From positions 1 through 64,000 of the forward strand of contig CANQDU010000008.1 in the NCBI GenBank assembly GCA_947593925.1: a stretch of 64,000 bases of DNA. Reading direction: 5' to 3'. A program made the translations under genes and the position numbers. Below, piece after piece: positions 13,214 through 63,347 of this stretch. This DNA comes from an uncultured Clostridia bacterium (GTDB taxonomy: Bacteria > Bacillota > Clostridia > Oscillospirales > JAAYOS01). Within the stretch, counting starts at the first letter, position 1; each line of letters opens with the position of its first letter. The notes under the pieces are model-generated. The model did not search any database and was not told the DNA's origin. It was given only the letters and a program-made list of their open reading frames with translations.

Positions 13214-13506
13214 GCGAGCCTCGCAGAGTTTCGCGCCGTTAGGCGCGAAATAGATTTCAATCCGTTTTTTCCGGCGGCGTGAATGCACCTGCAAACCAAC
13301 ACCGCATCCGGTTCGCTACGCAGCCTACGGCTGCGCCGCGCCGGTTCGCGCGGTTAAAGTTGCTTGCCACGGGCAAGCAACTTTGCGGAGCCGGAATTCA
13401 TTTCCGGCGAGCATTTCCATCGGAAGGGCTCCCACGCGGTCGCCGACCGCGTGGGAATGCGAAGCGGAGTGCATTCCGCCGGGCAAGGCTACGCCTTGTC
13501 CGGCGG
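13214..13506. repeat. Mosaic hairpin array R2 at the 3' end of the brkB-like gene
   Basis: No gene lies in 13161-13488. The stretch contains module g (13217-13234), module a (13258-13281), module c from 13338 with the stem AAAGTTGCTTGCC / GGCAAGCAACTTT (13356-13368 and 13372-13384), module d with the stem CCCACGCGGTC / GACCGCGTGGG (13431-13455), and a closing stem CCGCCGGGCAAGGC / GCCTTGTCCGGCGG (13476-13506). The closing stem contains the stop codon of the neighbouring gene (13489-13491). Modules g, a, c, d and the closing stem all recur at 1-269 or 63002-63347. Confidence 0.85.
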
Positions 13507-14430
13507 TCTGAGTTCGGTCGTGAGCGCCGCGCGGAGTGCGGCGGTCTCCGCGATATATGCGTTCACTTCCGCGCCGAACATTATCACGAAGCAGACGACG
13601 AGCAGCCACACCGCAAGTCCGAGGAACGCGCCGACGCCGCCGTACAGCGCGGAGTAGCGCGAAAACGTGCTCATATACGCCTCGAAGCCCCGGCTGACGA
13701 GCGTCCAGCTCACGGCGGCTATCGCCGCGCCTATCGCCGTCTGGCGCATCTCGAGGCGGAAGCCCGGCGTCGCGGCGTACATCACGAGCACAAAGAGGAA
13801 CAGCAGCGGGAGCGTGAAGGCGTACCGCGCCACCGTGACCACGACGTCTCCGCTCTGCCAGTTCTCTCCCGCGATGTAGCTCACGATGTCGCGGCCGAAC
13901 ACCCAGACGACGAGGCTCAGCGCTATCATCGCGACGAAGCCCACCATCAGCAGCACCGAAATTATCCGTCCCTTGAAGTAGTTCGGCGTCCTGCCGGTGT
14001 GGGATATGCAGATACCGCGCATCAGCGCCCATATTCCCGCCGACGCCGACCAGACCGACAGCACTATCTGCACGACGGTGTAGCCCGTCGAGCTCGGAGC
14101 GTGCTCCATGACCTCCCGCAGGGTAGACGCAACCGACTCGGGGAATATCGCCGAGAGCAGGCCCGTATCGAACGCGAACGGCATCCTCGAGAGCCACCCC
14201 GCCACGAGCATGAGTATCGGGAAGATGGCGAGCAGCAGAAAGAACGCCGTCTGCGCGGCGGTGCCTATCAGGTTGTCTCTCAGCACCCGGAACACGAAGC
14301 CGAACACTTCTCTCGCCCTTCTGTGACCCAAGAGCCACGTGTCAAGGCGCTCTATGCCGGTCGTGTGCTCGCGGCTCGCCGGAACGTCCGGGAAGCGCCG
14401 CAGTCCGAGCTTATTCGGTTTTTCCGACAC
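13489..14430 (-). CDS. YihY/BrkB family integral membrane protein
   Basis: A 313-residue polytopic membrane protein of the YihY/virulence-factor-BrkB family, whose molecular function is unsettled (not RNase BN, as once thought). Six hydrophobic segments can be seen, for example LIGTAAQTAFFLLLAIFPILML near 45-65, ISVLLMVGFVAMIALSLVVWVF near 150, and GGVGAFLGLAVWLLVVCFVIMFGAEVNAYI near 270. The last one carries the family's typical GAEVN motif. I chose the GTG at 14430, preceded at good distance by GGGAGGTGA; the upstream ATG at 14448 has no ribosome site. The stop codon is inside the terminal hairpin of array R2. Confidence 0.88.
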   Translation of the reverse strand: MSEKPNKLGLRRFPDVPASREHTTGIERLDTWLLGHRRAREVFGFVFRVLRDNLIGTAAQTAFFLLLAIFPILMLVAGWLSRMPFAFDTGLLSAIFPESVASTLREVMEHAPSSTGYTVVQIVLSVWSASAGIWALMRGICISHTGRTPNYFKGRIISVLLMVGFVAMIALSLVVWVFGRDIVSYIAGENWQSGDVVVTVARYAFTLPLLFLFVLVMYAATPGFRLEMRQTAIGAAIAAVSWTLVSRGFEAYMSTFSRYSALYGGVGAFLGLAVWLLVVCFVIMFGAEVNAYIAETAALRAALTTELRPPDKA

Positions 14431-14496
14431 GCCGCTCACCTCCCGCATTCGTCCGCCGAATGCTCGGCGGACTTATCAGAGTTGTTTCCATAGCCG

Positions 14497-25183: not shown

Positions 25184-25223
25184 ATCTTTTGCTTTGGCGG
25201 GCTGTGCCGCTCCACTCCCAGCC

Positions 25224-25360
25224 AGCGGGGAAGCCCCGCGAGCATTCGCGGGGGTGACCCCGCGTCCCTAAGTGAGGCAGAGCCTCACCGGTACCTTGCG
25301 GGGCTTTGCAGCCCCACACCCCGCGTTACTTTTTGTTTGTGCAAAAAATAACCAAAAAGC
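25224..25360 (-). repeat. Hairpin array R4, inverted partner of R5
   Basis: A 137-base chain of hairpins (GCGGGG/CCCCGC stems, GGTGAGGC / GCCTCAC, and a TTTTTTG / CAAAAAG stem). In reverse complement it aligns end to end with 25754-25891, at about four-fifths identity by eye. It is followed at 25370-25400 by a further hairpin (GGGGAGAAAACC / GGTTTTCTCCCC). Confidence 0.85.
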
Positions 25361-25753
25361 ACACAAAGGGGAGAAAACCAACGGTTTTCTCCCCTTTGTA
25401 CCCCTCTTTCCTTAATCGGAAGGTCTCTGCCACGCGGGGCGTCCGTACGTAGCTTAGTACAAGTGTCCACGCTCAAACTTTCCACTAGAACCGAAAGCTC
25501 CGTTTTCTCGGGAAAGTATCTGCATTACGCTTATAGCGTGAGCGTAGGACCGGATTTTTATTTCTACTACGCAGGAACTGTTCGATGTCGTCGAATACGG
25601 TGGGAAAGTTTGATGGTCTCCCCGGAAACTCACCCGCTCGGGTGATAGATTTGTTGGATACAGAGTGTCGTCCTGTTATGTGGGTTGCGGTGTTGTGTCT
25701 GTGTTGGGAGAGGGATTATTAAGGGAGAGGGCGGAGCCCTCTCCCTTAAGCGC
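25361..25753 (+). other. Non-coding segment between R4 and R5; candidate structured RNA at 25473-25645
   Basis: No convincing gene lies here. The middle has lower GC than its surroundings and is rich in pairing potential. TCAAACTTTCC (25473-25483) can pair with GGAAAGTTTGA (25603-25613). Inside and just after this long stem are smaller stems: ACGCT/AGCGT near 25533, GCGTAG/CTACGC near 25549-25571, TTCGA/TCGAA (25581-25595), and TCACCCG/CGGGTGA near 25627-25642. This could be a folded RNA of about 170 bases, but I recognise no known class. Confidence 0.35.
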
Positions 25754-25891
25754 GCTTTTTGATTACTTTTTGCGCGAGCAAAAAGTAATGCAGGGGTGCG
25801 GGGCGGCACAGCCCCGCCAGGTGTCGGTAGAGCTCCGTTCTACCAAGGACGCGGGGTCTCGCCCCGCGAATGCTCGCGGGGCTTCCCCGCT
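25754..25891 (+). repeat. Hairpin array R5, inverted partner of R4
   Basis: A 138-base chain: an imperfect TTACTTTTTGC / GCAAAAAGTAA stem, GCGGGGC / GCCCCGC, GGTAGA / TCTACC, and GCGGGG / CCCCGC stems. It is flanked by a GGGAGAGGGC / GCCCTCTCCC hairpin (25723-25746) and by further GC-rich hairpins up to 25965. Confidence 0.85.
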
Positions 25892-25971
25892 AGATGGGTG
25901 TGGGCTCTGCCCGCTTGCTCGCGGGGGCTTTGCCCCCCGCAATGTCGCGGGCTCCGCCCGCAGATAAGGTG

Positions 25972-40926: not shown

Positions 40927-41040
40927 CATAATTCGTGTGCTTTTTGTACCCGAAGCGGCTGTAAATGCCTCCGTCATTTCAAACGTCCTTTTGCAACGGC
41001 GGAGGCCTAATGTGCAAAAGAGCAGTGAAGAGTGAAGAGT
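40927..41040 (+). repeat. 115-bp intergenic repeat, copy R6
   Basis: Matches 59905-60019 in the same orientation at nearly 90 % by eye, from CATAATTCGTGTGC through GCAACGGCGGAGGCCTAATG to AGTGAAGAGT. An internal stem GCCTCCG / CGGAGGC surrounds ACGTCCTTTTGCAA (40983-40996). Each copy lies 3' of a plus-strand gene and runs directly into a strong hairpin. No terminal inverted repeats are seen. Confidence 0.85.
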
Positions 41041-42078: not shown

Positions 42079-45000
42079 TCATCTCCTCTTGTGTCTTCCC
42101 CTAAGGCTGACGCCTCGCCACTTGCCGGAGCAGGCAATGCTCCGCTTGCCAAAGAGGGAGAACGACGTCACAACTGCGCCGGTCAAGGAGAGAAGCATCA
42201 GTGCGACCCACAGCCACGGGTGACTGTTATCGCCGGTTTTGGGTGTTTCGTCCGACGTTTTGTCGTGATCCCGCGGCGGATCGCCGGGATCCGGCGGCGG
42301 ATCGCCGGGATCCGGCGGCGGGTCGCCGGGATCCGGAGACGGGTCGCCGAGATTCGGAGACGGGTCGCCGGGATTCGGCGACGGGTCGCCGGGATCCGGA
42401 GACGGGTCGCCGGGATCCGGCGGCGGGGCGTTGGGGTCGGGGATAGTGTTGAAGAACCGCACGGTTCCGTCCACACTCAAATCGCCGGTCTCCGCGCCGT
42501 AGACATACGTCCGATAACCGTCCCGATCGGCCTCGGCCTCGGTGACCTTGTATCCTATCCACGCGGGCAGATTTTCCACGGTGACGAGCTGACCGTGCTT
42601 CAGAGCAAATTCCAGCGTGACCGCACCGGTCTCCGCGTCCACGCTCCAAGTAAACCCATCGGGGGCGTCTGCTATCCTCGCTATCCCGGCAAGGTCGCGG
42701 TCGAAGCCCTCGGGCAGGGTGAACTCCACCTTGAAGTTGAAAGCCATCTCCTTGTCGCCCAGGCCGCCCACGGTCTTTTGCACCGTGAGCTTCACCGGCT
42801 CGTAGGAAAGGTTCTCAAAGAGCGCTCCCTGGTCAGAGCTTCGGACGACCCCGTCCTTTTCGTAGATGATCTCGGCGGCAAGCTTTCCATCGGAGCTTTG
42901 TGTCACCGCGACCGTAACATGCCAGACAGACCCGTCGCAGACAAAGCCGTCGGCCTCCTTCGGCTCCTCCCGCATCTCGTACTCGTATGTTTTCCCCACA
43001 TCTTCGGCGGTAAAGGTGATTCCTTCAAAGACCGCCCAGCCGTTGGATGAGACGGTCGCCTCCGCCGCGCGCGGCATTGGCGCACCGTTCAAGGGGTTCA
43101 GGACAAAGGTGAACGCGCCGTTCTCAAAAACCACGGGCTCTCCGGCAAGGTTCGTCAGAGTCTTTTGGGCTCTCAGCGCCACGCTGATTCCCGGATCGTC
43201 GGAGCTTGGAGCCGTGCCGTAGATATTCGTAAAGTCAAGGACGCCGTCCCCAAGGGCAACGGCCTCGCCGTCCTTCTCCGCCGTGATCGCGGCCTCAAGC
43301 TTGGTGTTTCCGGCAACATCCACCGTGACGGTATAGATGGAGGCGTCGTAGTTCATGCGGGGATCCGTCACCACCGGGATATACTCGACCACGGTGTAGA
43401 CATATTTCCCGGCCACCTCAAAAAGGGTGTCCTCAAAGATACCCGCCGGCGCCGTATTCCCGGCGGGCTCTCCGTTACGGACGGTGAGAGTCCCGGTTCC
43501 GAGATCCCAACCCGCCAGCTCGCCGATGGGGTCGCCGGCCGGGTTGCTGACGGAGGGCATCACCGTAAAGGCAAAGTCTCCGGCATTCAGATCGTAACTG
43601 CCCGAAACGGTCTTTCGGATGCCGAGGGTGACCGGCGCCGGGTCGGGGGTGGCGCCCCGGGTGTTGTGGAACACGATCTGGTCGGCGCTCTCGCCGTCCG
43701 CGGTGTACTTCACGTCCGCCAAAAGCTGCCCGTCGTAGTTGTCGGTGACGGTCACGGTGACGGTGTATACCCTCTCGTCATAGGTCACGCCCGGGAGTTC
43801 CTCATTGAGCTCCCGAACCTTGTAGACATATGTGCCTGTGGCGGTATACTCCACGGAGCCGAAATCCACGTTGCCGTGGACGTCGTTCCGAATGGTGAGC
43901 ATGTTCCCGACTATCCCCGCCGGCATGGGAGCGCCGGCCGTGGCCTCCAATGTGAAGCCGAACTGCTCGGCTTTAAGTCCCCGGTCGCTGACGAAAATCT
44001 TCTCCGCGGTCAGCTCCACGGCGGCGGGCGAGGTCATGTAGATGTTGACGAGTTTCACGGTGCTCTCGGAAACCTTCGCCGTGAGATGTCCCGCTCCGTC
44101 GTCTGTGACGGTGACGGTCATGGTGTAGACATTGTCGTCATAGCTGACGCCGCCAAAGGTCCCCACATTCTCCCGGACCTCAAAGGCATACTCCCCCGGA
44201 GCCAGGAACACATAGGAGAGGGTCTCCGCCGGGTTGGTCTTTGTAAAGGTCAGGGTCTCGCCGCCCTCGGGGAGGACGGTCATATCCTTATGGCGCACGT
44301 TGTCCCCGTTGCCGCTTGTAAGCGTCACCTCGGCGGAGAACTCCTTGCCCTCAGGCCAGTTGTTGTCCCGGAAGGTCTTCTCGACGGAGAACTCCGCCTC
44401 GGTGTAGGCGTAATTCTCAAAGGGCAGGTAGACCGTTGTTCTATTCACCGGCAGCGTGCTGTCGTCGGGCAGGATGTAGGCGTAGGTCATCTCAATGCCG
44501 CCTGTGGGAAGGCCGGTGGTTTCGTCGATCGTCTCCGACATGGTCATCTGAACGTGCAGCTCAGCCTGGACCGGGCGGGTGTTTTCGGGAAGTCCGACCT
44601 CCTTAATGACGAAGCCGTAGGTTATTTTCTCCCCTATATACGTGTTCCTCTTGACGCTCAATTCTCCCAGCTCGCTCATTGCGTAGCCGGAGCCGGCGTC
44701 TTTTCCCGTGACGGTGACGGTATAAGTCCCGTCGTCGGTCGGGTCCTTGACGAAGCCTGTGGGGACTGTGACGATACCGGAATCAATGGCTTCCTTGGTG
44801 TCCGGGTCCGGGGTAACGGTGAAGGTAAATACATCGCTCGCCGTCAAGGCTCTTCCGTTGAGGAACTTGATGAGCGTGATGTCGAATTTGCCTTGCTCAC
44901 TGTAGACGTTACGGAACATGATACCGGGGTGCGCGAGGTTCACATTGGGGTCGGTCTCGGAGGAGATGCTGTCCACCACCAGCTTGCCGCTCTCCTGGTC

Positions 45001-48000
45001 GTCCCGGACCCTAACCTCAAGTCTGAATTTGTATCCCACCTTTATGCCGTACTCCTCGTCGCTGTCCTCGGTGATGGTCAGGTAGTACGTGCCGGGCTTA
45101 TTAAAGGTCACAAGCCCCGGGGTGACCGTGTGCCGCCCTGCGGCGTCCACGTCGGTATCGGTGATGGAGAACTTGCCGCCGTCCGCGATCTCAAGTCCCT
45201 CAGGGTTGACTTTTTCCTCGGTCTTGGTCAGGGTGAACTTGAACTCGTCGGCCTCCATCCAGTCTCTGCCCGTGAGTTCCTTGATGACGGTGGGTCCCCA
45301 TTTCGCCGGGTCGGGGGCGTACTCGTTCGTAAATGTGACTGTGCCGCCGCTGACCGTTGTGCCATCCTGCTTCTCAATGGTGCGGGTGACGGTAAGGTGG
45401 TTGTCGTCGCCTGTTTTGGCGACGTCAAAGGTCACGGTGTAGGTGTTGTCGTCATACGTGACGCCGTTGATGCGACTGCCTCCGTACTCCTCGGTGAGCG
45501 TGAAGGTATACGTCCCCGCCTTATAGAAGCGGAAGATCGGGGAGTTGACGGCTCCACTACCGGTCAGGGTGAAGTCAAAGGTCTTGCCATCCGTCATGGG
45601 CAGGTATGTATTGCCGCCGTCCTCACTGTATTCCATCTGGGATGCATCGCCGGAGAGGACGGCATTCACCTTGTAGCTCTCCCCCGTCGTCAGCCACTCG
45701 CGGCCAGTGATCTCCTTGGCCACCGCGAACCAGCTGTTCACGGCATCGGGATCGGCGTCGGGGCCCTGTGGCTCGCCGCCGGCGTAGCAGCGGTTGGTGA
45801 AGGATGGGTTGGAATCGCTCTCACTCGTCACCTCAACCTTGAACTCAAACTTACCGGTGTATTTACCGCCCTCTGTTTTGCGCGTCGCGGTGACGGTGAC
45901 TGTCTTTACAGCCGTGTCATAGGTGAGGTTCTCAATCTTGCCGGTCTCTTCGGACACGGTGAAGGTGTAGACCCGCGGCGTCGCGACGGACTCCTTGCTG
46001 TCCGCCTTGTTGGTAACGGTGAGCTCGCCCAGTTCGATTTCTCGGGTCCCGGAGCCGGTATATTTTTCACTGCTTGTCACGGTGTAGTAATTGTTGACGC
46101 GCGTCCATGAAGCGGGCACGCTGAGCTCCCCGTTTTCAATGGCGGACAGGGTGGTGTCGTCGGGCTCCAGCTTAAAGGTAAAGGCGTCCGTCTCTATCCA
46201 GTCCCGACCATCCAGCGTCTTGTCAACGGCCAGAGAGAAGCTCCCGCTCTCCTCATATGTGTTAGTAAAGTCAAATGTGTAACTTGCGCTGGTGGCGGGT
46301 CTGGTGAGGATAGTCCCCGCCCCGTTCTTAACGGCAACATTCAGCGTGCCGTCGTCTTGGTCCGTGACCTCCACTGTGACGGTGACAGGTGCAGGCGCTG
46401 TGCCCGTGCCAAGGCCCTTGCCCGTGTTGGTCTCGGTGATGGTGAAGGTATAATTGCCCTCTTTGGTAAACGTGACCTCGCCGAAGCTGCCGTTGCCGGT
46501 GTTGTCGCCGGTCTCGGAGACTTCGACATTCTTTGAAGTGAACGTAGGAGCAGCGCCGCCGGTATAACCGGTGCACTCGATTTTAAACGCGAACTTCTCC
46601 CCGATCTCCCAGTCACGGCCCTTAAGGGTCTTGTTGACGGAGGGTGTCCATTTGCCCTCGGCCTCGTAGATGTTCTTGAACGTGATTGCGCCGGTGCCGT
46701 CCCCCGTCGCTCTGACCGCCACGGTCCCTGTGACGCTTGTTATGGTGCGTGTGACGGTGAGGCTATGATCGTCGGTCTCCTTCTTCGTGACATTAAAGGT
46801 CACGGTGTATTCGCTTTCATCATACGTGACGCCGTCAATATCGCCCTTGGTTTCGGTGACGGCAAACTCGTACTCTCCCGCCTCTAAGAAGCGGAAGTCG
46901 AATGTCTTGCTGACAGTGTAGTCCGTTGATGTAAACTTGGCCGACCGGCTGAACTTATCGTCGGTGATTTCGTTGTAGTCTTCATCACCCGGGGCTTTGG
47001 CAAGCATATTCGCAAGGTTGTCCTTGTCGCCGGTGTAGCTCACGTTGACGGTGAAGGTGTCAGTTGGAAGCCACTTCTCCTCCGGCCTGCCGGTAAGTTC
47101 CGAGATCACGCTGAATCCGTGTTCGCCGGTGACGGTTCCGGGACTTGCCGTGTCCACATAGCAGCGGTTGGTGAAGGGCAGGACAAGGCTTGTCGCGGAC
47201 GTTCCCCCGTCCGTGCCCGTGTCGCTGTCATCCACGATATAGGCATAGGTGGCCGAGAACTTCAATTTACCGTCGAGAGCCGAGCCGTCTACGTTGACCG
47301 TCAGCTTGATTTTCGGCTGGGCACAGTAGAGGGACTGCTCCGCGAAGTCCGCGGTGTTTTCCTCGATGATGAACGTGTAAGCTGCGGTTTTGCCGCCCAG
47401 ATTGCCCACTTGTAGGTCACCCAGATCCAGCTTTCTTGTCTCCCAACCTGTCGTTTCGTTCGTTTCCCCCGGAGTCTCTCCGACAGTAACGTTGAAAGAC
47501 GTCGCCGTTTTGTCCGTTATCCAACTTGCCGTAATCAGTTCGTCATTGATTGCCGTTGTGGTGACAGAGTCAAACGGGGTAATGGTGAAGCTGAACGTCT
47601 CGTTGCTCTCGTCGCCCTCGTCGTCCTTCCAATCCCGCCCGGTGAGCAGCTTGGACAGGGACAGAGGGAAGTCGCCGCTCTCATTGTAGGTGTTGACGAA
47701 GTTGACAGTGGTGGCGACATTATCGCTGGCAGTACCCGGTGTTGTTGTGCCGTCCTCGCCGGTGACGGTGAGGTTCATCTTGCCGTCGCCATTGTCTTTA
47801 GCGTTCACTTTGATGGTGATGCTGCCGGCGGACGTTGTGCTGCCGCCGCCAATACCCTTGCCCGTGCCGGTCTCGCTGATGGTGAAGGTATACTCGCCCT
47901 CTTGGGTAAACTCGATCGCGCCGAAGCTGACACCTGATGTGGCATTGTCCTCAACGATGCTGATTGTTTGTCCGCCCGGAATCGGATTTTCCACGCCGTC

Positions 48001-51000
48001 AGGCATCTCGGTGCACGTCAGCGTAAACTCAAACTTTTCCTCATCAGTTCCCCCGGCCGTTTCCCACTTCTGCCACTCGCGACCCTTGAGTTTCTTGGTC
48101 ACCGTGGGCGTCCATGTACCCTCGGCCTTGTAGGTGTTCACGAACGTGATGTTGCCGCCGGTGACCGGCGTGCCGTCTTGCTTCTCAATGGTGCGGGTGA
48201 CGGTGAGGCGGTTGTCGTCGTCGGTGTCCGGCGTGACGTTAAAGGTCACGGTGTAGGTGTTTTCATCGTACGTGACGCCGGGGATTTTTTCGCCGTCCTC
48301 GGGGACAGTCTCTTTGACGGTAAACTTGTACTCTCCCTCTTCAAAGAAGCGGAAGTCGAAGGTTTTGGATTTTTCCGATTCGGTAAATGTCACGTTGCCG
48401 TGTTTGGCTTCCCACTTGACATATTCGCCCTCATCATTCTTGAACTGGAAGTCGTCGAGCAGGTCAGCGTCGCCAGAGAACGTCACCGTGGCGCTGAACG
48501 TATCATCCGTGGTGCCATTTGTCCACTTGTTGTCCGGTCGACCGGTGAACTCCTTCTCCACGGTGAAGCCATGTTCGCCGACGCTCGCGCTGGGGCCCTC
48601 CGTGTCCACATAGTACTTGTTGGTGAAGGGGACGGTATAGGGTGCTTTAAGATTGTCGGGGTCATCCTTGCCCGTCGAGCTCCCAAAGTACGCATACGTC
48701 AGGATCGTGCCGTTGTAACCGCCCTCATTATACTCGTCTGAGTACGCCGTCACGGTGAGCTTGACCGTCGGCTGGCGGCATTCAAGGGTCTTTTCCGCAA
48801 AATCATCTGTTTTCTCCGTCACGGTGAACACGTACTCTCCGCCCTTGGCCTCAAGGTTAGACAGGTTCAACGTCCCCGGCACCCGCCGCGCGGCGTCGCC
48901 GGATCCTTTCGCACTGCTGTCTGTTATGGTGACGGTGTACGTTACGTCTTTGTTATCTGTCCATTCGGTGGGTACGGTAAGCTTTCCTGCCTTCACCGCG
49001 TTCTGCGCCGCTTCGTTGAGCTCCACCGTGAAGATAAAGCTGTCCCCGCTCTCGTCGCCCTCACCGCTCACCCAGTCGCGGCCCGTCAGGGTCTTCTCGA
49101 TGGCGATTTCAAAGCTGCCGCTCTCGCTGTACACGTTGACGAAGTTGATGGTGGACGTCACGGCGTTAGTCTTGTTGTTATCCGTTTCGTCCGGGTGTTC
49201 AGCGCTTCCGCCAAGGCCGGTGACTTCGAGGTTCAGCGTGCCGTCGTTATTATCCGTGGCAACCACTTTGATGGTGATAGCGTCACGAATATCCAGCTTT
49301 CCGTTGATATGATTTAATGTCTCAGAAAGGGTAAACGTGTACTCTCCCGGGGCTTTGAAGGTGACCGCATCGAAAGTCCCGGAGTTGTCGTTCTTGCTGG
49401 TGGCCTTACTGATGGTAAGACTCTGATCTCCGTTATCAGGCTTATAAGTTCCCGGATATTTCGTGCAAGTCAGGGTGAAATCAAACTCTTCATACTCCCC
49501 CCAGTCGCGGCCTTCGACAAACTTATGGATCGTCGGCGTCCATCTGCCGGTGGCCTGATAGGTATTGGAGAAGGTCATTACGTGATCGCCGGTGTGGCCC
49601 TCGCGCTTGGCGATGAAGGTGATGTCCAACTTCGCAGCTGCTATCTCTTTAAAAGTATAATAATCAGCTGCGTCCGCATTAGGATCGTCGTCAGCAACAA
49701 TATAAATTGTTCTGGCCGCTCCCGATCCTTCAGCCGGAATATCCACACTGAATTTCGTCGGGATGCCTGTCGTGGAATCACCTTGCCGCTCCACCACCGT
49801 TGCCTCTCGGATGACCGGGTGGTCTTCGGTGGTGCTATTATTGACGTAGTACCACTTTGTCTCCCAGTCGGTCTCTGTTGTGTCAAACCCTTCAAACTTG
49901 GGATTTGCCCAATCGTTAAAGCTGTTTACCACTACCTGATCCGTCGTGCAGGTTGCCTCAGGCTTGCTCGTCTCCGTGATCGCAGCGGCCGCGCAGTCGT
50001 ACAGGTCGAAGTCCAGCTCGTCGATGATGCCGTCCGTGACCGCCGCTGCCAGATTGCCTTCACCGGTGGTTATACTAACGGCGTTTTTCAGGGTGATGAC
50101 CAGGGTGTAGACCTGCTCGGAATAGGTGATGCCTTTGGTATCAGCAGGCTTGTACTCCCTGATTTCCAGCTTGTAGACGATATCCTCGGTGCGGGACACG
50201 ACCACCGGGTCACCTTCGTGATTGCCCGTCCTAGCATGGGCCTCAAGGTCTGAGCAGAACACATACTTTGCGTCTTCGCCCTCAGGCGCGTAATAGACCA
50301 CCTTTGCGGTATCGGTCTCTTCGACCGGCTCGCCTGCCTTGTATGCGGTGCCGTCCGCTCCGGCGCCGTCCTCGGCGTATACCCACGCCGTGGGGAACTT
50401 CAAATTCTGGAAGTCGATCTCGTCAAAGGTAAAGGTATGGCCGACATTGACCTCATCACCTTCGCCAATATCACTGGTAGTGCCTCGGGGATTGGTCACG
50501 TTTTTCTGATTGAAACAGACCACCTTTTGGGTGTCAAACGTTCCGTGAACCTCGTCCCGTTTCCCGTGCAGACCGCCGATGTAGATGTTGCCGGCATTGA
50601 GGGCTTCCTTGGTCGTATCGTCAGCGCCCTCGATGGTCACATAGAAGTGGTCGCCCTCCAGCCAGCCGTCGTCATATTTGCTTTTCTCGCTTGTGTCTTC
50701 ATTGCTGCTGTTGAGGGGCTGCCCGTTCTCGTTCAGCCGGCCGGTGAAGTTCTTGGTGATGGCATAGCCGGTGGTCTGGACGGCGGGCTGAACCTGATAG
50801 TTGTTGGTGAACAGCGGGGAGGCGCCCATATACTTCTGGGGAGTTTTATAACCATCCGGATATTTAGCGGAGCTGGTCGCAGAATCATCATCATCATTTT
50901 CCTGATAGGTGATATTTGTTACCTCTGCCTCCAGATGGGAGTTTGCGGTGGTTGGGTTACTCTCGTCCGCTTCACTGTCCGGATTCATCACGCGCTTCAC

Positions 51001-54000
51001 CTTTACCACGACCGTATAGACGACGGAGTCGCCGGACAGCGTCCCGCCTACCACGTCGTTCTCGCTGATCGTAAAGGTATAGGTGCCCGCGGCGGGGAAT
51101 TTCTCGCCCTTACCGGCGAACTTTGTTGCGTCATCTGACAACGTGTTATTATGGGCCAGCGTCGCGTCTGTGAGTGTATACTTTGTTTCTCCGCCCGGTA
51201 CAGTTTCTTCGACCGGCTTGCCGTCGGTGAGGAGCAGGAACGACTGGTGGATGTCCGGATAGGCGGTCTCGACGGTCTGGTTCGTCGAGCCGGGGATGGT
51301 GAAAGACTCCACGTAGTTGTCGCTGGAGTAGTTCACGGTGACGTCGGTATGCTCTTTGAACGCATTTGCAAAATTCTTCAAAGCCGTGACAAGCGTCGTG
51401 TCGTCGCCGACGATACCAGCCTCGCCTTCGTCAATGTTGATACCATAGTCCGCAAAGCCTGCGACATTTTGAACATCCGCGAAAGCTGTAACTTCGCCGC
51501 CGTCTTTATCCCGGAACGCGATGTTGAACTCAAAGCTGTCCTCCGTGTTCCAGGCGCGGCCGGCGATGCGCTTGCGCACCATCAGGTTGCCGCTGGCGGG
51601 GATATTGCCCACCGGGAACTCGATGAAGTTCTCGTCGTCGTTGTCAGTGCCGCCAGGATTGGCCGCGCCGAAACGCCCGTTCTGGGATATCCAGGTCTGG
51701 TATGCCTCATATTTCGGATCCCCGGGCTCAACCGGGTCAAATTTCTCGTCGTGATCACACTTCGCCGGGTGGATCAGGTACAGCTCCTCCATGACGCGGT
51801 AGCCCGCCGGGGCGTACATCTCGCGCAGGACATAGTGCTTCCCGGAATCCAGGCCGGCGAAGGCCACCTTGCCGTTGGTGCGGGTGGTGGCGCTGCCCAC
51901 CTGGTGGAGGGTCAGCCATTGCAGGTCACCGGCTTCGCCACCTGCAATATGCTTTCGCACCTCTTCAAGGGAAATATCTTCCGAACCGCTTTCAATTTGC
52001 GTATACAACCGGAAGGTGGCTCCCTGTAGGAAGTTCTTGTCGGTGAGGGCGCCGGTGTACTTCAGAATCTGGATGACGCCGGGGGCGTCGGAGTTGGTGA
52101 TGGTGATGGTGGTCTCGGCGGTGCCGGGGTTGCGGTCCAAAACGGCGGTGTAGGGGGCCTTTTCAGCTTCCGTCCATTCCGCCTCGCCGGGGTTGAGGGA
52201 GTCGTAGCTGCCGTATTTCAGCGCCGCGACCTCGTCCGAGTTCAGCGTCCGGCAGGACGCCTCTCCGACAAAGCTGCTGTATGTAAGCTCGGAGGCCGCC
52301 GTGTCCAGCTCAAAGGTGTGCCTGTAGAGCGTACCGCCGCCCTCGCCGGATGAATTTTTTACCAGATAATACTCGGCGGAGATGTAATACTCTACCTTGT
52401 TGCCGTCAATGGTGTCGGGCAGATAGTTCCAGACGTTCTCCCAGCTCATGATGGAGGACAGGGAGCGCTCCTCATAGACCTTGTGGTTCTTGCTGGTCTT
52501 ATCGTAATAGCTCAGCTCATAGACCACGTTCGGCGGAGTCGTCGTGTCCGTGCCCGTCGTCTTCCAGGACTTCACCGCCCTCAGCGACTGCACGGGCGTA
52601 TAGTGATACCCCACGTCGATGGCGGTGGCGGTGTGGTTTTCGTAGTCGGCGAGGTTATCATCTGGGTCGATTGCGCCGGAAACAGAACTATCCTTATCTG
52701 CCAGCGTGAAGACCTGAACCTCGGTGCCCTTTTCGTTCTTGTCATAGGCGTAAAGGGCATAGTTGCCGTATTGATTTGGATCTTTTCCCAACGGGGTGCC
52801 TGGCGTGTTATACGACGTCAGCTCCCAGTTGGGATAGGTCTTTATGACCTCATAGGCAAACTTCGTGCCTTTGGTCGCGTCGTAGAGCTGGTTTTCAAAG
52901 ATGACGTGTCCTGTCAGATCCGTGGTGTCCGGGGTATCCCGTTTGACAAGCTCGAAAACCGTTTTGTCCGAAGGGAAGACCCCGCCAGAAAGCTCCGCTA
53001 TCGCCCAATTGCCGTGAGTGCCCTCAACGGTGTAGTATGTTTTCCCTGATACGGGAGCGGTGTCATCGGTTTGCCGGTACAGATTCACCCTCACGCCGCT
53101 GAGCGGCACGTCCATGTCGGTCTGCTTGGCATTATATTTGCCGTCGAAGCCACTCGTTTTACCGGCGTCGTTGTCGTAGAACACAAGCCCGGTGATATTG
53201 GCCGGCGTCTTGTCCTCGGGGATTCCTTTAATGACGATCTGCTCTTCTGTAGTGCCTTTAGCCGTGACGGGCTGCCCGGGCACAAAGGTCCAGAAATTCT
53301 GGATGCTGAAGTCGGAGACGACAGAGCCACTACCGCCACTGATTTTGGCGACCGGGTGCTTCTCGCTGTCCAGCCAGTCGATCATATCCTGCTGCTTTGC
53401 AATTACGTCTGTACCTACCAGCTCGCCGGTTTCTGTATTATAAAAGGTGATGTCATTACTGATGTGGCTGTGGTCGCCGGCGCGGAGACCTTTCCCAATC
53501 CGATAGTCATCCGTCCACGCCACGTATTCTGTGGAGGTACTCTCTGAAATGTCCCTCCAAACGAAGAACTGATTCGTTCTCGTCGAATCATAATCTTGCC
53601 TGGCCTTACTTTTTCCATCCCACGAGTTGTCCACCCAGTTTTGTAGTGCCGTTATTTTAGGCTTGCCACTATCCAAGATGATATCACTTTCAGGCGTGCC
53701 GGCGCGCGCCACCCGTTCCCCGTAGTAGATGGCGGAGTTGTCGTAGTAGATGACGCTCTTTGTGGCGGTGTAGATGTTGGTCGGGGTCCCATCAGTCTTG
53801 TCATCCGCGTCCAGGCGCTCGCCGTCCTTGTTGTAGACAGGGCTCAACCGGGTAAAGGTGAAGCCTCCGCCGGTATCCTCCACGTCCACAATGGGGAAGT
53901 GGATCTCACCGGCCTTGGTGGTGATGGTCCAGGAGATGTCCACCAGGGTATAATCGCCCGCAGGGATGATCTCGCCGTTGCCGTCCCGCCCATCCCAGAA

Positions 54001-55425
54001 GAAGCGGTTGGTGGAGTAGGGCGTCACCACCTGGGAGATTTCCACAGGGGCATACTGTTTGCCAAATTTGTTATTGGTATCCACAAACTCGATCCGCAAA
54101 GTGGCGGTGGTGGCGTTCTCCACATCGAACTGGAACCAGCCGCCCCGGCCCACATAGGTGCCGGGGATATAACTGCCTTTCTCCTCATCCCAAACTTCGG
54201 TCACAAATTTCAGGTTGGAGGCGGGATCCGGGGCCACGGCCTTGTCATAGAGCTGCCCCATCAGGTCCTCGTCCGGCATCTCAAAGAAGATCTTGTAGCT
54301 CTTTGTAAGCTCCGTGTCCGGGGTGCCGGGGTAGGTGTAGGTGATGCCGAATTCATCGTACGTATTCCCGTTGTCCACGTCCTTGACCGACTTGTAGAGG
54401 ATGTGATCCGTGCCCTTCTCCAGAAGTCCCTGGTTGTTGGCGAAGAAGTTGTAGGTGTAGGGGTGGGCCTTTTTAAAGTCCCACCGGTAGATATAGTTGT
54501 CCGAGGTGAGGACGTAGTAGGTTTCGTTCACATCGCCTTTTTCCTGAAAGTCCAGGTAGTCGGCGTAGACGCGGCCCGTCTCCTTGTAGCCCTGCTCGTT
54601 GAACACGCTGATATCCCAGGCGTCTACCATTCCGCCGCAGTCCTTGGACTTAATCAACCCCGTATCATCAGCAAACACGCCGTTTTTTGTTTGCCGTGAA
54701 TCAGTATCAGTACCACTGCCGTCCTGAGAGTGGAACTCAAAGGTATACACGCCGGTCTCGCGGACTTCGTAGGTCAGGGGGGTGTAGGTGTATTTTTGTA
54801 TGCCAACGGTTCCCTCATTTCCGGTGACCTTCTCCATGGTCTTGGCCAGCACTTCGGTCTGATAATTGGGGATGTGGCCCTTGCCGTCCTTCATCACATC
54901 GTAGAGGATGCGGTTGCCGTGCAGGTCGATGAGGACGATGTCCACCGTGGCGCCCTCGCCCAGGCGATCCGCAATTTCCTGCTTTTGTTTAGCGTTTGCT
55001 ACGGCAGTCCCCTCCGCAGTCAGCGTGGAGTCACAGATGTTGGAGCCGAAGGTGATCGTCTCACCTTCAAAGGCGTAAACGTGTATGTAGTTTCTGTGTA
55101 CGATCCCGCCAAATGTGCCATCACTTTTTGCCCAGCACATATACGTCCGGGCGGAGTTACCGTGATCGACTGTATTGCCGCCGGCATCCTTGCCGCTCGT
55201 TGCCCACTTCAGGTTGGCTGTGTCGAATCTATCTGCATACGCCTCTATGCGATCCGCCTTTTCCTGCTCATAGTTCTTTGCGTCCGCGGCTTTGGCCTCG
55301 GGCAGGACAAAGTTCACCAGCCCCAGCGTCATCACCAGGGCCATCAGACCCGCCAGCGTCCGCCTTCCCGCGTCCGCGCGCCGCGCTGCCCGGCAGACCT
55401 TCCGCGCCCATTTTGTGATCCTCAT
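42079..55425 (-). CDS. Giant LPXTG-type adhesin, 4,448 residues, about 18 isopeptide/FctA-like domains
   Basis: A cell-wall-anchored surface protein. Order: signal peptide (1-47, ending PEAKAADA); an N-terminal adhesin region to about 740; a SdrD-like B domain (ITGLVFYDNDAG, about 750); CnaB-like and SpaA-like domains (to about 1270); then about 18 FctA/Spy0128-like domains. Most of these carry the isopeptide Lys in KxLxGRxW, Glu in YTFTISE and Asn in FxNxY. Domains 3-14 form four copies of an A-B-C triplet (49.56 to 44.04 kb). A Pro/Asp/Gly 7-residue repeat, a TPKTGD sorting signal, a membrane helix and a long basic tail end the protein. The region is visibly lower in GC than its neighbours, suggesting transfer. 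The ATG at 55425 follows GGGGGAG. Sortase B is downstream. Confidence 0.93.
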   Translation of the reverse strand: MRITKWARKVCRAARRADAGRRTLAGLMALVMTLGLVNFVLPEAKAADAKNYEQEKADRIEAYADRFDTANLKWATSGKDAGGNTVDHGNSARTYMCWAKSDGTFGGIVHRNYIHVYAFEGETITFGSNICDSTLTAEGTAVANAKQKQEIADRLGEGATVDIVLIDLHGNRILYDVMKDGKGHIPNYQTEVLAKTMEKVTGNEGTVGIQKYTYTPLTYEVRETGVYTFEFHSQDGSGTDTDSRQTKNGVFADDTGLIKSKDCGGMVDAWDISVFNEQGYKETGRVYADYLDFQEKGDVNETYYVLTSDNYIYRWDFKKAHPYTYNFFANNQGLLEKGTDHILYKSVKDVDNGNTYDEFGITYTYPGTPDTELTKSYKIFFEMPDEDLMGQLYDKAVAPDPASNLKFVTEVWDEEKGSYIPGTYVGRGGWFQFDVENATTATLRIEFVDTNNKFGKQYAPVEISQVVTPYSTNRFFWDGRDGNGEIIPAGDYTLVDISWTITTKAGEIHFPIVDVEDTGGGFTFTRLSPVYNKDGERLDADDKTDGTPTNIYTATKSVIYYDNSAIYYGERVARAGTPESDIILDSGKPKITALQNWVDNSWDGKSKARQDYDSTRTNQFFVWRDISESTSTEYVAWTDDYRIGKGLRAGDHSHISNDITFYNTETGELVGTDVIAKQQDMIDWLDSEKHPVAKISGGSGSVVSDFSIQNFWTFVPGQPVTAKGTTEEQIVIKGIPEDKTPANITGLVFYDNDAGKTSGFDGKYNAKQTDMDVPLSGVRVNLYRQTDDTAPVSGKTYYTVEGTHGNWAIAELSGGVFPSDKTVFELVKRDTPDTTDLTGHVIFENQLYDATKGTKFAYEVIKTYPNWELTSYNTPGTPLGKDPNQYGNYALYAYDKNEKGTEVQVFTLADKDSSVSGAIDPDDNLADYENHTATAIDVGYHYTPVQSLRAVKSWKTTGTDTTTPPNVVYELSYYDKTSKNHKVYEERSLSSIMSWENVWNYLPDTIDGNKVEYYISAEYYLVKNSSGEGGGTLYRHTFELDTAASELTYSSFVGEASCRTLNSDEVAALKYGSYDSLNPGEAEWTEAEKAPYTAVLDRNPGTAETTITITNSDAPGVIQILKYTGALTDKNFLQGATFRLYTQIESGSEDISLEEVRKHIAGGEAGDLQWLTLHQVGSATTRTNGKVAFAGLDSGKHYVLREMYAPAGYRVMEELYLIHPAKCDHDEKFDPVEPGDPKYEAYQTWISQNGRFGAANPGGTDNDDENFIEFPVGNIPASGNLMVRKRIAGRAWNTEDSFEFNIAFRDKDGGEVTAFADVQNVAGFADYGINIDEGEAGIVGDDTTLVTALKNFANAFKEHTDVTVNYSSDNYVESFTIPGSTNQTVETAYPDIHQSFLLLTDGKPVEETVPGGETKYTLTDATLAHNNTLSDDATKFAGKGEKFPAAGTYTFTISENDVVGGTLSGDSVVYTVVVKVKRVMNPDSEADESNPTTANSHLEAEVTNITYQENDDDDSATSSAKYPDGYKTPQKYMGASPLFTNNYQVQPAVQTTGYAITKNFTGRLNENGQPLNSSNEDTSEKSKYDDGWLEGDHFYVTIEGADDTTKEALNAGNIYIGGLHGKRDEVHGTFDTQKVVCFNQKNVTNPRGTTSDIGEGDEVNVGHTFTFDEIDFQNLKFPTAWVYAEDGAGADGTAYKAGEPVEETDTAKVVYYAPEGEDAKYVFCSDLEAHARTGNHEGDPVVVSRTEDIVYKLEIREYKPADTKGITYSEQVYTLVITLKNAVSITTGEGNLAAAVTDGIIDELDFDLYDCAAAAITETSKPEATCTTDQVVVNSFNDWANPKFEGFDTTETDWETKWYYVNNSTTEDHPVIREATVVERQGDSTTGIPTKFSVDIPAEGSGAARTIYIVADDDPNADAADYYTFKEIAAAKLDITFIAKREGHTGDHVMTFSNTYQATGRWTPTIHKFVEGRDWGEYEEFDFTLTCTKYPGTYKPDNGDQSLTISKATSKNDNSGTFDAVTFKAPGEYTFTLSETLNHINGKLDIRDAITIKVVATDNNDGTLNLEVTGLGGSAEHPDETDNNKTNAVTSTINFVNVYSESGSFEIAIEKTLTGRDWVSGEGDESGDSFIFTVELNEAAQNAVKAGKLTVPTEWTDNKDVTYTVTITDSSAKGSGDAARRVPGTLNLSNLEAKGGEYVFTVTEKTDDFAEKTLECRQPTVKLTVTAYSDEYNEGGYNGTILTYAYFGSSTGKDDPDNLKAPYTVPFTNKYYVDTEGPSASVGEHGFTVEKEFTGRPDNKWTNGTTDDTFSATVTFSGDADLLDDFQFKNDEGEYVKWEAKHGNVTFTESEKSKTFDFRFFEEGEYKFTVKETVPEDGEKIPGVTYDENTYTVTFNVTPDTDDDNRLTVTRTIEKQDGTPVTGGNITFVNTYKAEGTWTPTVTKKLKGREWQKWETAGGTDEEKFEFTLTCTEMPDGVENPIPGGQTISIVEDNATSGVSFGAIEFTQEGEYTFTISETGTGKGIGGGSTTSAGSITIKVNAKDNGDGKMNLTVTGEDGTTTPGTASDNVATTVNFVNTYNESGDFPLSLSKLLTGRDWKDDEGDESNETFSFTITPFDSVTTTAINDELITASWITDKTATSFNVTVGETPGETNETTGWETRKLDLGDLQVGNLGGKTAAYTFIIEENTADFAEQSLYCAQPKIKLTVNVDGSALDGKLKFSATYAYIVDDSDTGTDGGTSATSLVLPFTNRCYVDTASPGTVTGEHGFSVISELTGRPEEKWLPTDTFTVNVSYTGDKDNLANMLAKAPGDEDYNEITDDKFSRSAKFTSTDYTVSKTFDFRFLEAGEYEFAVTETKGDIDGVTYDESEYTVTFNVTKKETDDHSLTVTRTITSVTGTVAVRATGDGTGAITFKNIYEAEGKWTPSVNKTLKGRDWEIGEKFAFKIECTGYTGGAAPTFTSKNVEVSETGDNTGNGSFGEVTFTKEGNYTFTITETNTGKGLGTGTAPAPVTVTVEVTDQDDGTLNVAVKNGAGTILTRPATSASYTFDFTNTYEESGSFSLAVDKTLDGRDWIETDAFTFKLEPDDTTLSAIENGELSVPASWTRVNNYYTVTSSEKYTGSGTREIELGELTVTNKADSKESVATPRVYTFTVSEETGKIENLTYDTAVKTVTVTATRKTEGGKYTGKFEFKVEVTSESDSNPSFTNRCYAGGEPQGPDADPDAVNSWFAVAKEITGREWLTTGESYKVNAVLSGDASQMEYSEDGGNTYLPMTDGKTFDFTLTGSGAVNSPIFRFYKAGTYTFTLTEEYGGSRINGVTYDDNTYTVTFDVAKTGDDNHLTVTRTIEKQDGTTVSGGTVTFTNEYAPDPAKWGPTVIKELTGRDWMEADEFKFTLTKTEEKVNPEGLEIADGGKFSITDTDVDAAGRHTVTPGLVTFNKPGTYYLTITEDSDEEYGIKVGYKFRLEVRVRDDQESGKLVVDSISSETDPNVNLAHPGIMFRNVYSEQGKFDITLIKFLNGRALTASDVFTFTVTPDPDTKEAIDSGIVTVPTGFVKDPTDDGTYTVTVTGKDAGSGYAMSELGELSVKRNTYIGEKITYGFVIKEVGLPENTRPVQAELHVQMTMSETIDETTGLPTGGIEMTYAYILPDDSTLPVNRTTVYLPFENYAYTEAEFSVEKTFRDNNWPEGKEFSAEVTLTSGNGDNVRHKDMTVLPEGGETLTFTKTNPAETLSYVFLAPGEYAFEVRENVGTFGGVSYDDNVYTMTVTVTDDGAGHLTAKVSESTVKLVNIYMTSPAAVELTAEKIFVSDRGLKAEQFGFTLEATAGAPMPAGIVGNMLTIRNDVHGNVDFGSVEYTATGTYVYKVRELNEELPGVTYDERVYTVTVTVTDNYDGQLLADVKYTADGESADQIVFHNTRGATPDPAPVTLGIRKTVSGSYDLNAGDFAFTVMPSVSNPAGDPIGELAGWDLGTGTLTVRNGEPAGNTAPAGIFEDTLFEVAGKYVYTVVEYIPVVTDPRMNYDASIYTVTVDVAGNTKLEAAITAEKDGEAVALGDGVLDFTNIYGTAPSSDDPGISVALRAQKTLTNLAGEPVVFENGAFTFVLNPLNGAPMPRAAEATVSSNGWAVFEGITFTAEDVGKTYEYEMREEPKEADGFVCDGSVWHVTVAVTQSSDGKLAAEIIYEKDGVVRSSDQGALFENLSYEPVKLTVQKTVGGLGDKEMAFNFKVEFTLPEGFDRDLAGIARIADAPDGFTWSVDAETGAVTLEFALKHGQLVTVENLPAWIGYKVTEAEADRDGYRTYVYGAETGDLSVDGTVRFFNTIPDPNAPPPDPGDPSPDPGDPSPNPGDPSPNLGDPSPDPGDPPPDPGDPPPDPGDPPRDHDKTSDETPKTGDNSHPWLWVALMLLSLTGAVVTSFSLFGKRSIACSGKWRGVSLRGRHKRR
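42274..42430 (-). repeat. 21-bp minisatellite encoding the Pro-rich stalk of the adhesin
   Basis: About seven tandem 21-base units (for example GTCGCCGGGATCCGGCGGCG per unit on the plus strand). They encode the 7-residue repeat PDPGDPS with S/P and D/N variants, just before the sorting signal. It forms the wall-spanning stalk. Confidence 0.9.
44041..45312 (-). repeat. Adhesin super-repeat unit 4 (domains A4-B4-C4)
   Basis: A4 begins at KWGPTVIKELTGRDW (about 45.30 kb), B4 at GKFDITLIKFLNGRAL (44.89 kb), and C4 at EFSVEKTFRDNNW (44.40 kb). It is the most diverged of the four units; three further degenerate domains follow it. Confidence 0.7.
45313..46660 (-). repeat. Adhesin super-repeat unit 3 (domains A3-B3-C3)
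   Basis: A3 begins at KWTPSVNKTLKGRDW (about 46.65 kb), B3 at ESGSFSLAVDKTLDGRDW (46.25 kb), and C3 at WFAVAKEITGREW (45.74 kb). Confidence 0.75.
46661..48127 (-). repeat. Adhesin super-repeat unit 2 (domains A2-B2-C2)
   Basis: A2 begins at TWTPTVTKKLKGREW (about 48.12 kb), B2 at ESGDFPLSLSKLLTGRDW (47.68 kb), and C2 at GEHGFSVISELTGRPEEKW (47.13 kb). It is closest to unit 1. Confidence 0.8.
48128..49560 (-). repeat. Adhesin super-repeat unit 1 (domains A1-B1-C1)
   Basis: A1 begins at RWTPTIHKFVEGRDW (about 49.55 kb), B1 at ESGSFEIAIEKTLTGRDW (49.13 kb), and C1 at GEHGFTVEKEFTGRPDNKW (48.58 kb). B1 and B2 share the insert GEGDESGD / DEGDESNE, and C1 and C2 share GEHGF and GRPxxKW. Confidence 0.8.
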
Positions 55426-55516
55426 ATCGCTCTCCCCCTGTAATATAGAGATCATTATGGTTTGTGCCGGTCAGCTTCGGGTTGTTCTCTCGCCGAAGCG
55501 TCCTCCGGACTTGGTT

Positions 55517-59904: not shown

Positions 59905-60019
59905 CATAATTCGTGTGCATTTTGCGCCGCGAAACGGCTGTAAATGCCTTCGCAATTTCAAACGTCCTTTTGCAACGGCGGAGGCCTAATGTGCAAAAGA
60001 GCAGTGAATAGTGAAGAGT
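59905..60019 (+). repeat. 115-bp intergenic repeat, copy R7
   Basis: Same sequence type and orientation as 40927-41040. It contains ACGTCCTTTTGCAA at 59962-59975 and GCCTTCG / CGGAGGC as the internal stem (one G-T pair in place of the G-C seen in R6). Confidence 0.85.
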
Positions 60020-60065: not shown

Positions 60066-60153
60066 GGCGGAGAGGGTGGGATTCGAACCCACGTGCAGTT
60101 TCCTGCAAACTGATTTCGAGTCAGCCCCGTTATGACCACTTCGATACCTCTCC
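60065..60153 (-). tRNA. tRNA-Ser (anticodon CGA)
   Basis: An 89-base gene with the encoded CCA. The acceptor stem pairs GGAGAGG with CCTCTCC, discriminator G. The anticodon loop is CTCGAAA (anticodon CGA, reads UCG), and there is a long variable arm (GCAGGAAACTGC), as in all serine tRNAs. The T-arm reads GTGGGTTCGAATCCCAC. Single tRNA, followed by its own terminator. Confidence 0.97.
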
Positions 60154-62538: not shown

Positions 62539-62954
62539 CGGAAAAGACGCTGGAACGGTACGCCGAGGCACGGAAGATCGCGATATACCGGCTGCCGCTT
62601 GCCGAGTGCGGGTCGCTCGCGATAGACTGCGGGCACGAGCGGAGCGCGGTCGGGTTGGACAACTCGCGGAGAATAAGCTCCGCCGAGTCGGTGACGCGCC
62701 TCGCGCACGAGCTCGGGCACTGCTGCACCGGGAGCTTCTACACAAAGAGCAGCGCGGCGGACAGCGTGGAACGGAACGAGGCGCGCGCGTGGGCGTGGGC
62801 ATACGAGCACATACTCTCCCCCTCGCGCCTGCGGAGCGCCGCGCGTCAGGGCGTCACCGAGCCTTGGGAGCTCGCGGAGCTCTTCGGCGTGACCGAGGAC
62901 ATGGTGCGCCGCGCCCTTGCGTACTACGCCGCGAAGGGCACGGAGATAGTCTGA
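62535..62954 (+). CDS. ImmA/IrrE-family metallo-endopeptidase
   Basis: A 139-residue zinc protease with HELGHC near residue 58 (HExxH). The upstream stretch SSAESVTRLAHELGH and the downstream NEARAWAWAYEHILSP, holding the third ligand region, are typical. ImmA cleaves its partner repressor to trigger induction of mobile elements. It is translationally coupled to the repressor. No integrase, portal, terminase or structural gene is present nearby, so the element is incomplete. Confidence 0.93.
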   Translation: MTEKTLERYAEARKIAIYRLPLAECGSLAIDCGHERSAVGLDNSRRISSAESVTRLAHELGHCCTGSFYTKSSAADSVERNEARAWAWAYEHILSPSRLRSAARQGVTEPWELAELFGVTEDMVRRALAYYAAKGTEIV

Positions 62955-63001
62955 CAAGTCGGAGAAAACCGAGGGTTTGTAACCCTCGGTTTTTTACCGC
63001 C

Positions 63002-63347
63002 AGCCTCGCAGAGTTTCGCAATTCCCAAACGGCGCGCCGCGCCGTTTGGGAATTGCGTCGATTTTCCGCCGAAGGCGGAAACCGCGCCGGTTCGCGCGGT
63101 TAAAGTTGCTTGCCATAGGCAAGCAACTTTGCGCAGCCCCGATTTATTCGGGGCGAGCATTTCAATCAAAAGGGCTCCCACGCGGTCGCCGACCGCGTGG
63201 GAATTGCGTAGCGGAGCGCTTGCCGTCGGCAAGGCTACGCCTTGTCCGACAGCTTCACTTGAAATGGCGCCTGCGCAATTTCAAGTGAAAGTCTCGTCGC
63301 GAAAGGGTGCGCAGGGCAATTTATTGCCCTAGCACATTTCGCGACGA
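63002..63347. repeat. Mosaic hairpin array R3 at the 3' end of the class V aminotransferase gene
   Basis: Contains module g (63002-63019), a CAATTCCCAAACGGCGCG palindrome (63019-63055), module b (63055-63081), module c from 63084 (stem AAAGTTGCTTGCC / GGCAAGCAACTTT, 63102-63130), module d (63177-63201), the GTCGGCAAGGC / GCCTTGTCCGAC stem (63225-63250), the TTCACTT / AAGTGAA stem (63254-63289), and a closing nested stem TCGTCGCGAAA / TTTCGCGACGA (63294-63347). The closing stem surrounds the stop codon of the aminotransferase gene (63329-63331). No gene lies in 62955-63328. Confidence 0.85.

Follow-up and report, generated by a model that had tools for sequence, protein, structure and literature searches.

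The window is a stretch of 64,000 nucleotides from contig C8 of a 1.87-Mb, 19-contig genome (G000) from gut Clostridia, and it contains three hairpin arrays, R1 at positions 37–270, R2 at 13218–13506 and R3 at 63003–63347, all described here on the plus strand. R1 is a copy of an element that we call E (43–270), without the nested element F, and comprises hairpins h2 (43–75), h3 (99–119), h4 (142–173), h5 (174–209) and h6 (214–270); the left end of E and h1 are missing, and the contig starts at base 1. R2 opens with the left end of E, GCCTCGCAGAG (13218–13228), followed by hairpin h1 (13229–13250). In the adjoining segment (13264–13335) the left arm of h2 (13264–13281) is broken by a degraded H unit whose conserved core lies near 13293. 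A nested F follows at 13336–13456, scoring 132.5 bits with the covariance model labelled R1, and the array ends in h4 of E (13476–13506), which overlaps the 3' end of a minus-strand ORF (13489–14448). Just 5' of R3 lies the terminator-like hairpin (62964–62992) of an upstream ORF with its stop near 62954. Within R3, the left end of E (63003–63013) is followed by an F-type M4 palindrome (63017–63057) in place of h1 and h2, the two together filling 63003–63057, and then by the left part of h3 (63058–63081), which is the usual insertion site of F within E. The nested F spans 63082–63202 (135.5 bits with the same model), and the remainder of the array (63219–63347) consists of h4 (about 63219–63252), h5 (63253–63289) and h6 (63294–63347), the right end entering the 3' end of a minus-strand ORF (63321 or 63329 onwards).

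The first-pass annotation had described these arrays as drawing on one set of modules, and the alignments bear this out. Positions 13336–13458 of R2 and 63082–63204 of R3 are identical at 110 of 123 bases, with a longest identical run of 35, and positions 126–216 of R1 and 63206–63296 of R3 at 74 of 91. The longest shared words are 24 bases for R1 and R2, 28 for R1 and R3 and 35 for R2 and R3, compared with a median of 9 and a maximum of 14 among 293 random pairs of 300-bp windows. Hairpin h2 is common to R1 and R2 (truncated in R2), h3 to R1 and R3 (with the left part alone in R3), the F modules to R2 and R3, h5 with its TTCACT stem to R1 and R3, and h4 with its GTCGG stem to all three. The annotation's view that the arrays are built of palindromic units, and are not a single repeat of fixed length, also holds. 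R1, R2 and R3 represent one small palindromic element of fixed order in three states, with other hairpin elements nested in it or not. R1 consists of E alone; in R2, E contains an F and a degraded H; in R3 it contains an F, and an M4-type palindrome has taken the place of h1 and h2. The differences between the arrays come from the presence or absence of nested F and H in E, and from deletions and stem swaps.

E measures about 200–260 bp and has the order left end, h1, h2, h3, h4, optional h5 and h6, where the outer stem of h6 surrounds a second, variable hairpin. F, of about 122 bp, features four hairpins joined by conserved linkers, in the order CCGCGC hairpin, M2, GCGCA, M3, GAGCATTTNAAT linker and M4, and is found solo, in tandem or nested in E at one recurrent site in the h3 region. 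The H unit has the core GAACCAATACCGCATCCGAC; its copies, numbering about 25, are found in the middle of h2 and in the loops of F. R3 has 106 matches elsewhere in the genome, partial and antisense ones included, and the left-end motif CCTCGCAGAGTT occurs 73 times as against once for a reversed control. The stretches examined around known copies amount to 0.82 Mb, a sample biased toward arrays, and contain 82 clusters with at least two module seeds and about 60 copies of F scoring above 45 bits; there are about 75 arrays in the genome. The count of 112 F matches returned by the covariance model is inflated by weak antisense matches (22–40 bits) overlapping strong ones, and a loose regular expression for F was dropped because its matches were mostly false. 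In several contigs of this assembly, copies of E lie within about 115 bases of the contig end. E and F are two composite elements that explain most of the array structure, and their architecture and module order are well supported.

The window also contains repeats of other kinds. One minus-strand ORF of 4458 codons (42079–55455) is internally repetitive and includes a 21-bp tandem repeat at about 42254–42463; from its translation it looks like a giant repetitive surface protein, the identities of ORFs being assigned here and below by translation and by eye. A 90-bp repeat that is not part of E, F or H is present at 40951–41040 and 59930–60019 with 94% identity, the second copy lying just before a minus-strand tRNA gene (60068–60153). 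Another dispersed repeat is centred around GACACACAACCGCAACCCAC with the hairpin GGGAGAGGGC before it, and is found near 25699 on the minus strand of the window and at C1:196314 and C11:61760 of G000. Inverted repeats of 42 nt at 25212–25253 and 25862–25903 are 93% complementary and enclose 608 bp.

When 84,980 species were scanned with one genome per species, a set that may leave out the window's own genome, an exact F linker turned up in just three assemblies, all of uncultured Clostridia from samples labelled Lapin, French for rabbit. Copies are numerous in four of the five species sampled from the home genus, and F is absent from the fifth genome (G002), which has a median protein identity of 74%. 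A covariance model of F detected diverged relatives in 21 of 245 genomes, four of them from the home genus and the others from several other families of the order, and the 391 genomes of the class that were covered yielded none in other orders. The best of these relatives retain the linkers GCGCAG, ATTCA, GAGCA and GGG-CCC. A plasmid of Pusillibacter faecalis (Oscillospiraceae) carries one relative, a copy without a flanking repeat whose match covers 62% of the query. Comparison of orthologous gaps between species reveals gains and losses of E, F and H, and at many orthologous positions an array is present in both species. The conserved core pattern of F was also seen in five contigs of the IMG/VR viral collection (L248–L252). 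At L226, L227 and L228, from at least two genera, F lies at the 3' end of the same gene, infB-like by eye, with differing repeat boundaries and with other hairpin repeats adjoining F.

Searches of the five genomes of the genus for a partner enzyme gave no match to Y1_Tnp (PF01797), for which control genomes did give matches, none to RVT_1 (PF00078), and none to DDE_Tnp_1, Transposase_mut or rve, so that no partner of the RAYT/HUH, IS4, IS256, rve or RT type was found in them. The home genomes appear to be metagenome-assembled, and enzyme genes may therefore be missing. Derivation from a group IIC intron or retroelement would call for a reverse transcriptase in the genome, and PF00078 was found in none of the five. 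The first-pass annotation knew of no named element with this architecture, in agreement with what we find: Rfam 15 at gathering scores gave only tRNA matches over the whole window and, with E values up to 1, no match assignable to E, F or H at three array-bearing loci, and the literature searched held no description of such an element.

Among the 23 best-scoring F relatives from other families, some of which are orthologous between species of one genus and hence not all independent, 17 are flanked by direct repeats of 28–109 bp, compared with 7 of 506 mismatched-flank controls, under a threshold for calling repeats that was chosen after the first cases had been seen. In these 17 copies the right-hand repeat begins 0–7 nt, and usually 1–3 nt, past F. 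For 16 of the 17 copies, a same-strand upstream ORF was identified that terminates within the upstream repeat or beyond it, and for 15 its stop codon is inside that repeat or no more than 13 nt past it; the repeats around F relatives are mostly a duplicated 3' end of the upstream gene. At L247, units of gene end and F are arranged in tandem, where repeat and F abut directly on the left (0 nt) and are 2 nt apart on the right.

The home genus offers comparable sites. At C10:59985, a 66-bp gene end, stop codon included, is present on both sides of F; the orthologous site in G001 has one copy of the gene end and no F, while G003 has F at the same junction. In the vicinity of 239.9 kb on C3, a gene end occurs three times with an F between successive copies, in the pattern X-F-X-F-X. 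At C5:129030, E is flanked on either side by the 3' end of an ORF that resembles rpsI by eye from its translation; G001 has a single copy of this 3' end and no E. Nested copies of F have repeats of 18–28 bp, some of which are E sequence. Under a strict rule, flanking repeats were called at 8 of 100 F copies in the loci of relatives within the home genus, as against 7 of 494 controls, several of the 8 being E sequence at the nested site. None of R1, R2 and R3 has a clear flanking repeat, and no duplication is visible at C3:164250, a polymorphic site with E in G001 and without it in G000. Repeats beside tRNA genes at L040 and L095 may be tandem tRNA genes and were not counted as evidence.

We conclude that the arrays are probably copies of palindromic DNA elements that are mobile but non-autonomous and make long target duplications at gene ends, the manner of insertion being read from these footprints. 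Weighing against this reading are the rarity of clear flanking repeats in the home genus and their absence from all three window arrays, the lack of a visible duplication at C3:164250, and the failure to find any of the five enzyme families in the genomes of the genus. Insertion would duplicate a long and variable stretch of target, measured at about 18–110 bp and longer if diverged spacer is counted. The cut would span the stop codon, for which reason the neighbouring gene would stay intact, and gene ends would thus tolerate insertion and become hot spots. Arrays could grow as new copies nest in old ones, and also by recombination between duplicated gene ends, which would yield the X-F-X-F-X pattern. 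No benefit to the host would be needed to explain the elements. A wider proposal, put forward tentatively as a possibility that falls short of being probable, is that they form an undescribed class of mobile palindromic elements in Oscillospiraceae and related families, inserting in the sense orientation at gene 3' ends and sparing the gene by duplicating its last tens of bases together with the stop codon, and that the enzyme moving them belongs to none of the transposase and reverse transcriptase families searched for.

The duplications might instead have been made by replication slippage or template switching at the hairpins, with F copied in as a side product and no transposase involved. 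Hairpins do provoke template switching, the repeats vary widely in length (18–109 bp) and none of the five enzyme families was found, all of which would suit such an origin. However, F is sharply bounded, as the 0–7 nt to the right-hand repeat in 17 copies indicates, and it has been dispersed to unrelated sites and is common to several families, and we regard this origin as unlikely, though deserving of some weight.

The position of the elements and the conservation of their stems could also reflect a function for the host, if E and F were RNA modules of 3'-UTRs or terminators, serving as mRNA end stabilisers or transcription barriers, whose structure is selected and which are spread by recombination. 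With a crude gene caller, 49 of 71 right ends of E face the 3' end of a gene, compared with an expectation of about 47%, and in 12 of 71 cases E is bordered by gene 5' ends on both sides; this bias to gene ends, raised in the first-pass annotation, is graded as moderate because spurious ORFs overlap some of the arrays. Arrays often follow terminator hairpins, and the many orthologous positions with an array in both species would likewise be in keeping with a function. So would the strong covariation of F, since in 24 diverse copies 99.0% of the stem cells are paired, 20 of 38 pairs are changed on both sides, and the covariation score is 0.413 compared with 0.145 in shuffles. On the other hand, the same copies have 145 two-sided cells against only 4 one-sided ones, a ratio not raised by picking copies for diversity (which does raise the number of changes), whereas stepwise RNA compensation should leave G-U intermediates. 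Mismatches in 62 copies are balanced between G.T (15) and A.C (12), so that no strand is favoured, and orthologous h4 hairpins of sister species can differ in both arms and yet pair. The near-perfect stems thus change as blocks, a pattern more easily explained if whole hairpins are replaced or copied in DNA than if RNA pairing is restored step by step; stems would stay perfect through such block exchange and not through single compensatory steps. With the absence of F from G002 in the same genus and target duplications that point to insertion, a role as RNA modules appears quite improbable.

Assembly of the arrays by random shuffling of independent palindromic modules, as the first-pass annotation had proposed, would account for the different subsets held by R1, R2 and R3 and for a few recombinant forms such as the M4-type palindrome that replaces h1 and h2 in R3. 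In G000, however, 225 of 235 neighbouring pairs of modules follow one order on one strand (about 96%, with 10 discordant), and at loci from three sister species the same order is found in 286 of 321 neighbouring pairs (35 discordant), the exceptions being mostly junctions between successive copies. Shuffling is therefore refuted as the main process, and we consider it very improbable as an account of the arrays. The annotation had set against its own proposal a single family with fixed module order; such a family is largely what we observe, although it is not one named in the literature searched.

REP/BIME repeats are associated with a Y1 (HUH) RAYT transposase and consist of 20–40 nt units of alternating orientation with a GTAG or CGTC foot tag. 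That our arrays are repeats of this type moved by a RAYT, as their small, clustered, high-copy intergenic palindromic units might suggest, is scarcely credible and already contradicted, unless the RAYT is divergent or unassembled, by the lack of Y1_Tnp in all five genomes when controls matched, by the long flanking repeats, and by the composite make-up of E and F, which have a single orientation and a fixed order and not alternating units. MITEs are recognised by terminal inverted repeats, usually a short target-site duplication, and a transposase partner whose ends match theirs; in alignment A1, judged by inspection, CCGCGC and GTGGGA at the two ends of F do not form an inverted repeat.

The mobile-element reading matters because the usual account of small palindromic repeats invokes RAYT or IS partners and target duplications that are short or absent, and here no such partner was found. 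A family that is often accompanied by a duplicate of the gene tail into which it inserted provides oriented insertion footprints in common gut bacteria, and these offer a way to search for the missing enzyme. Variable 3' ends and assembly breaks are also likely to arise from the elements.

Several known systems share features with E and F. Members of the IS1634/IS1549 group of IS4 have unusually long and variable target duplications, as E and F appear to, but no DDE_Tnp_1 (IS4-type) protein was found in the genus and F is only about 122 bp long. Bacterial MITEs, ERIC/RU and Correia elements are described as short, non-coding, dispersed and structured sequences without an enzyme gene (PMC10969869), a description that also suits E and F; the differences are that the ends of F are not inverted repeats, the duplications are tens of bases long and no partner IS was identified. 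REP/BIME repeats and REPINs with their RAYTs are high-copy extragenic palindromes in composite clusters (PMC2817692, PMC3116915), as are E and F, which are however much longer, lie in one orientation with long flanking repeats, and occur in a genus without a Y1 transposase. A likeness in architecture is also seen to the BOX elements of Streptococcus pneumoniae, modular ordered stem-loops of the scheme boxA-boxB(n)-boxC with many intergenic copies and variable inner modules, which insert into one another and have been judged mostly parasitic with slow turnover (PMC3049150). Compared by architecture, E and F resemble BOX in their ordered modular stem-loops, their variable inner modules, their many intergenic copies and their nesting, and differ in the long target duplications of gene ends, the nesting of F in E, the block-swapped stems and the lack of an enzyme candidate. 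The E/F family works like modular repeats such as BOX, and is filed under neither REP/BIME nor MITE, nor under BOX.
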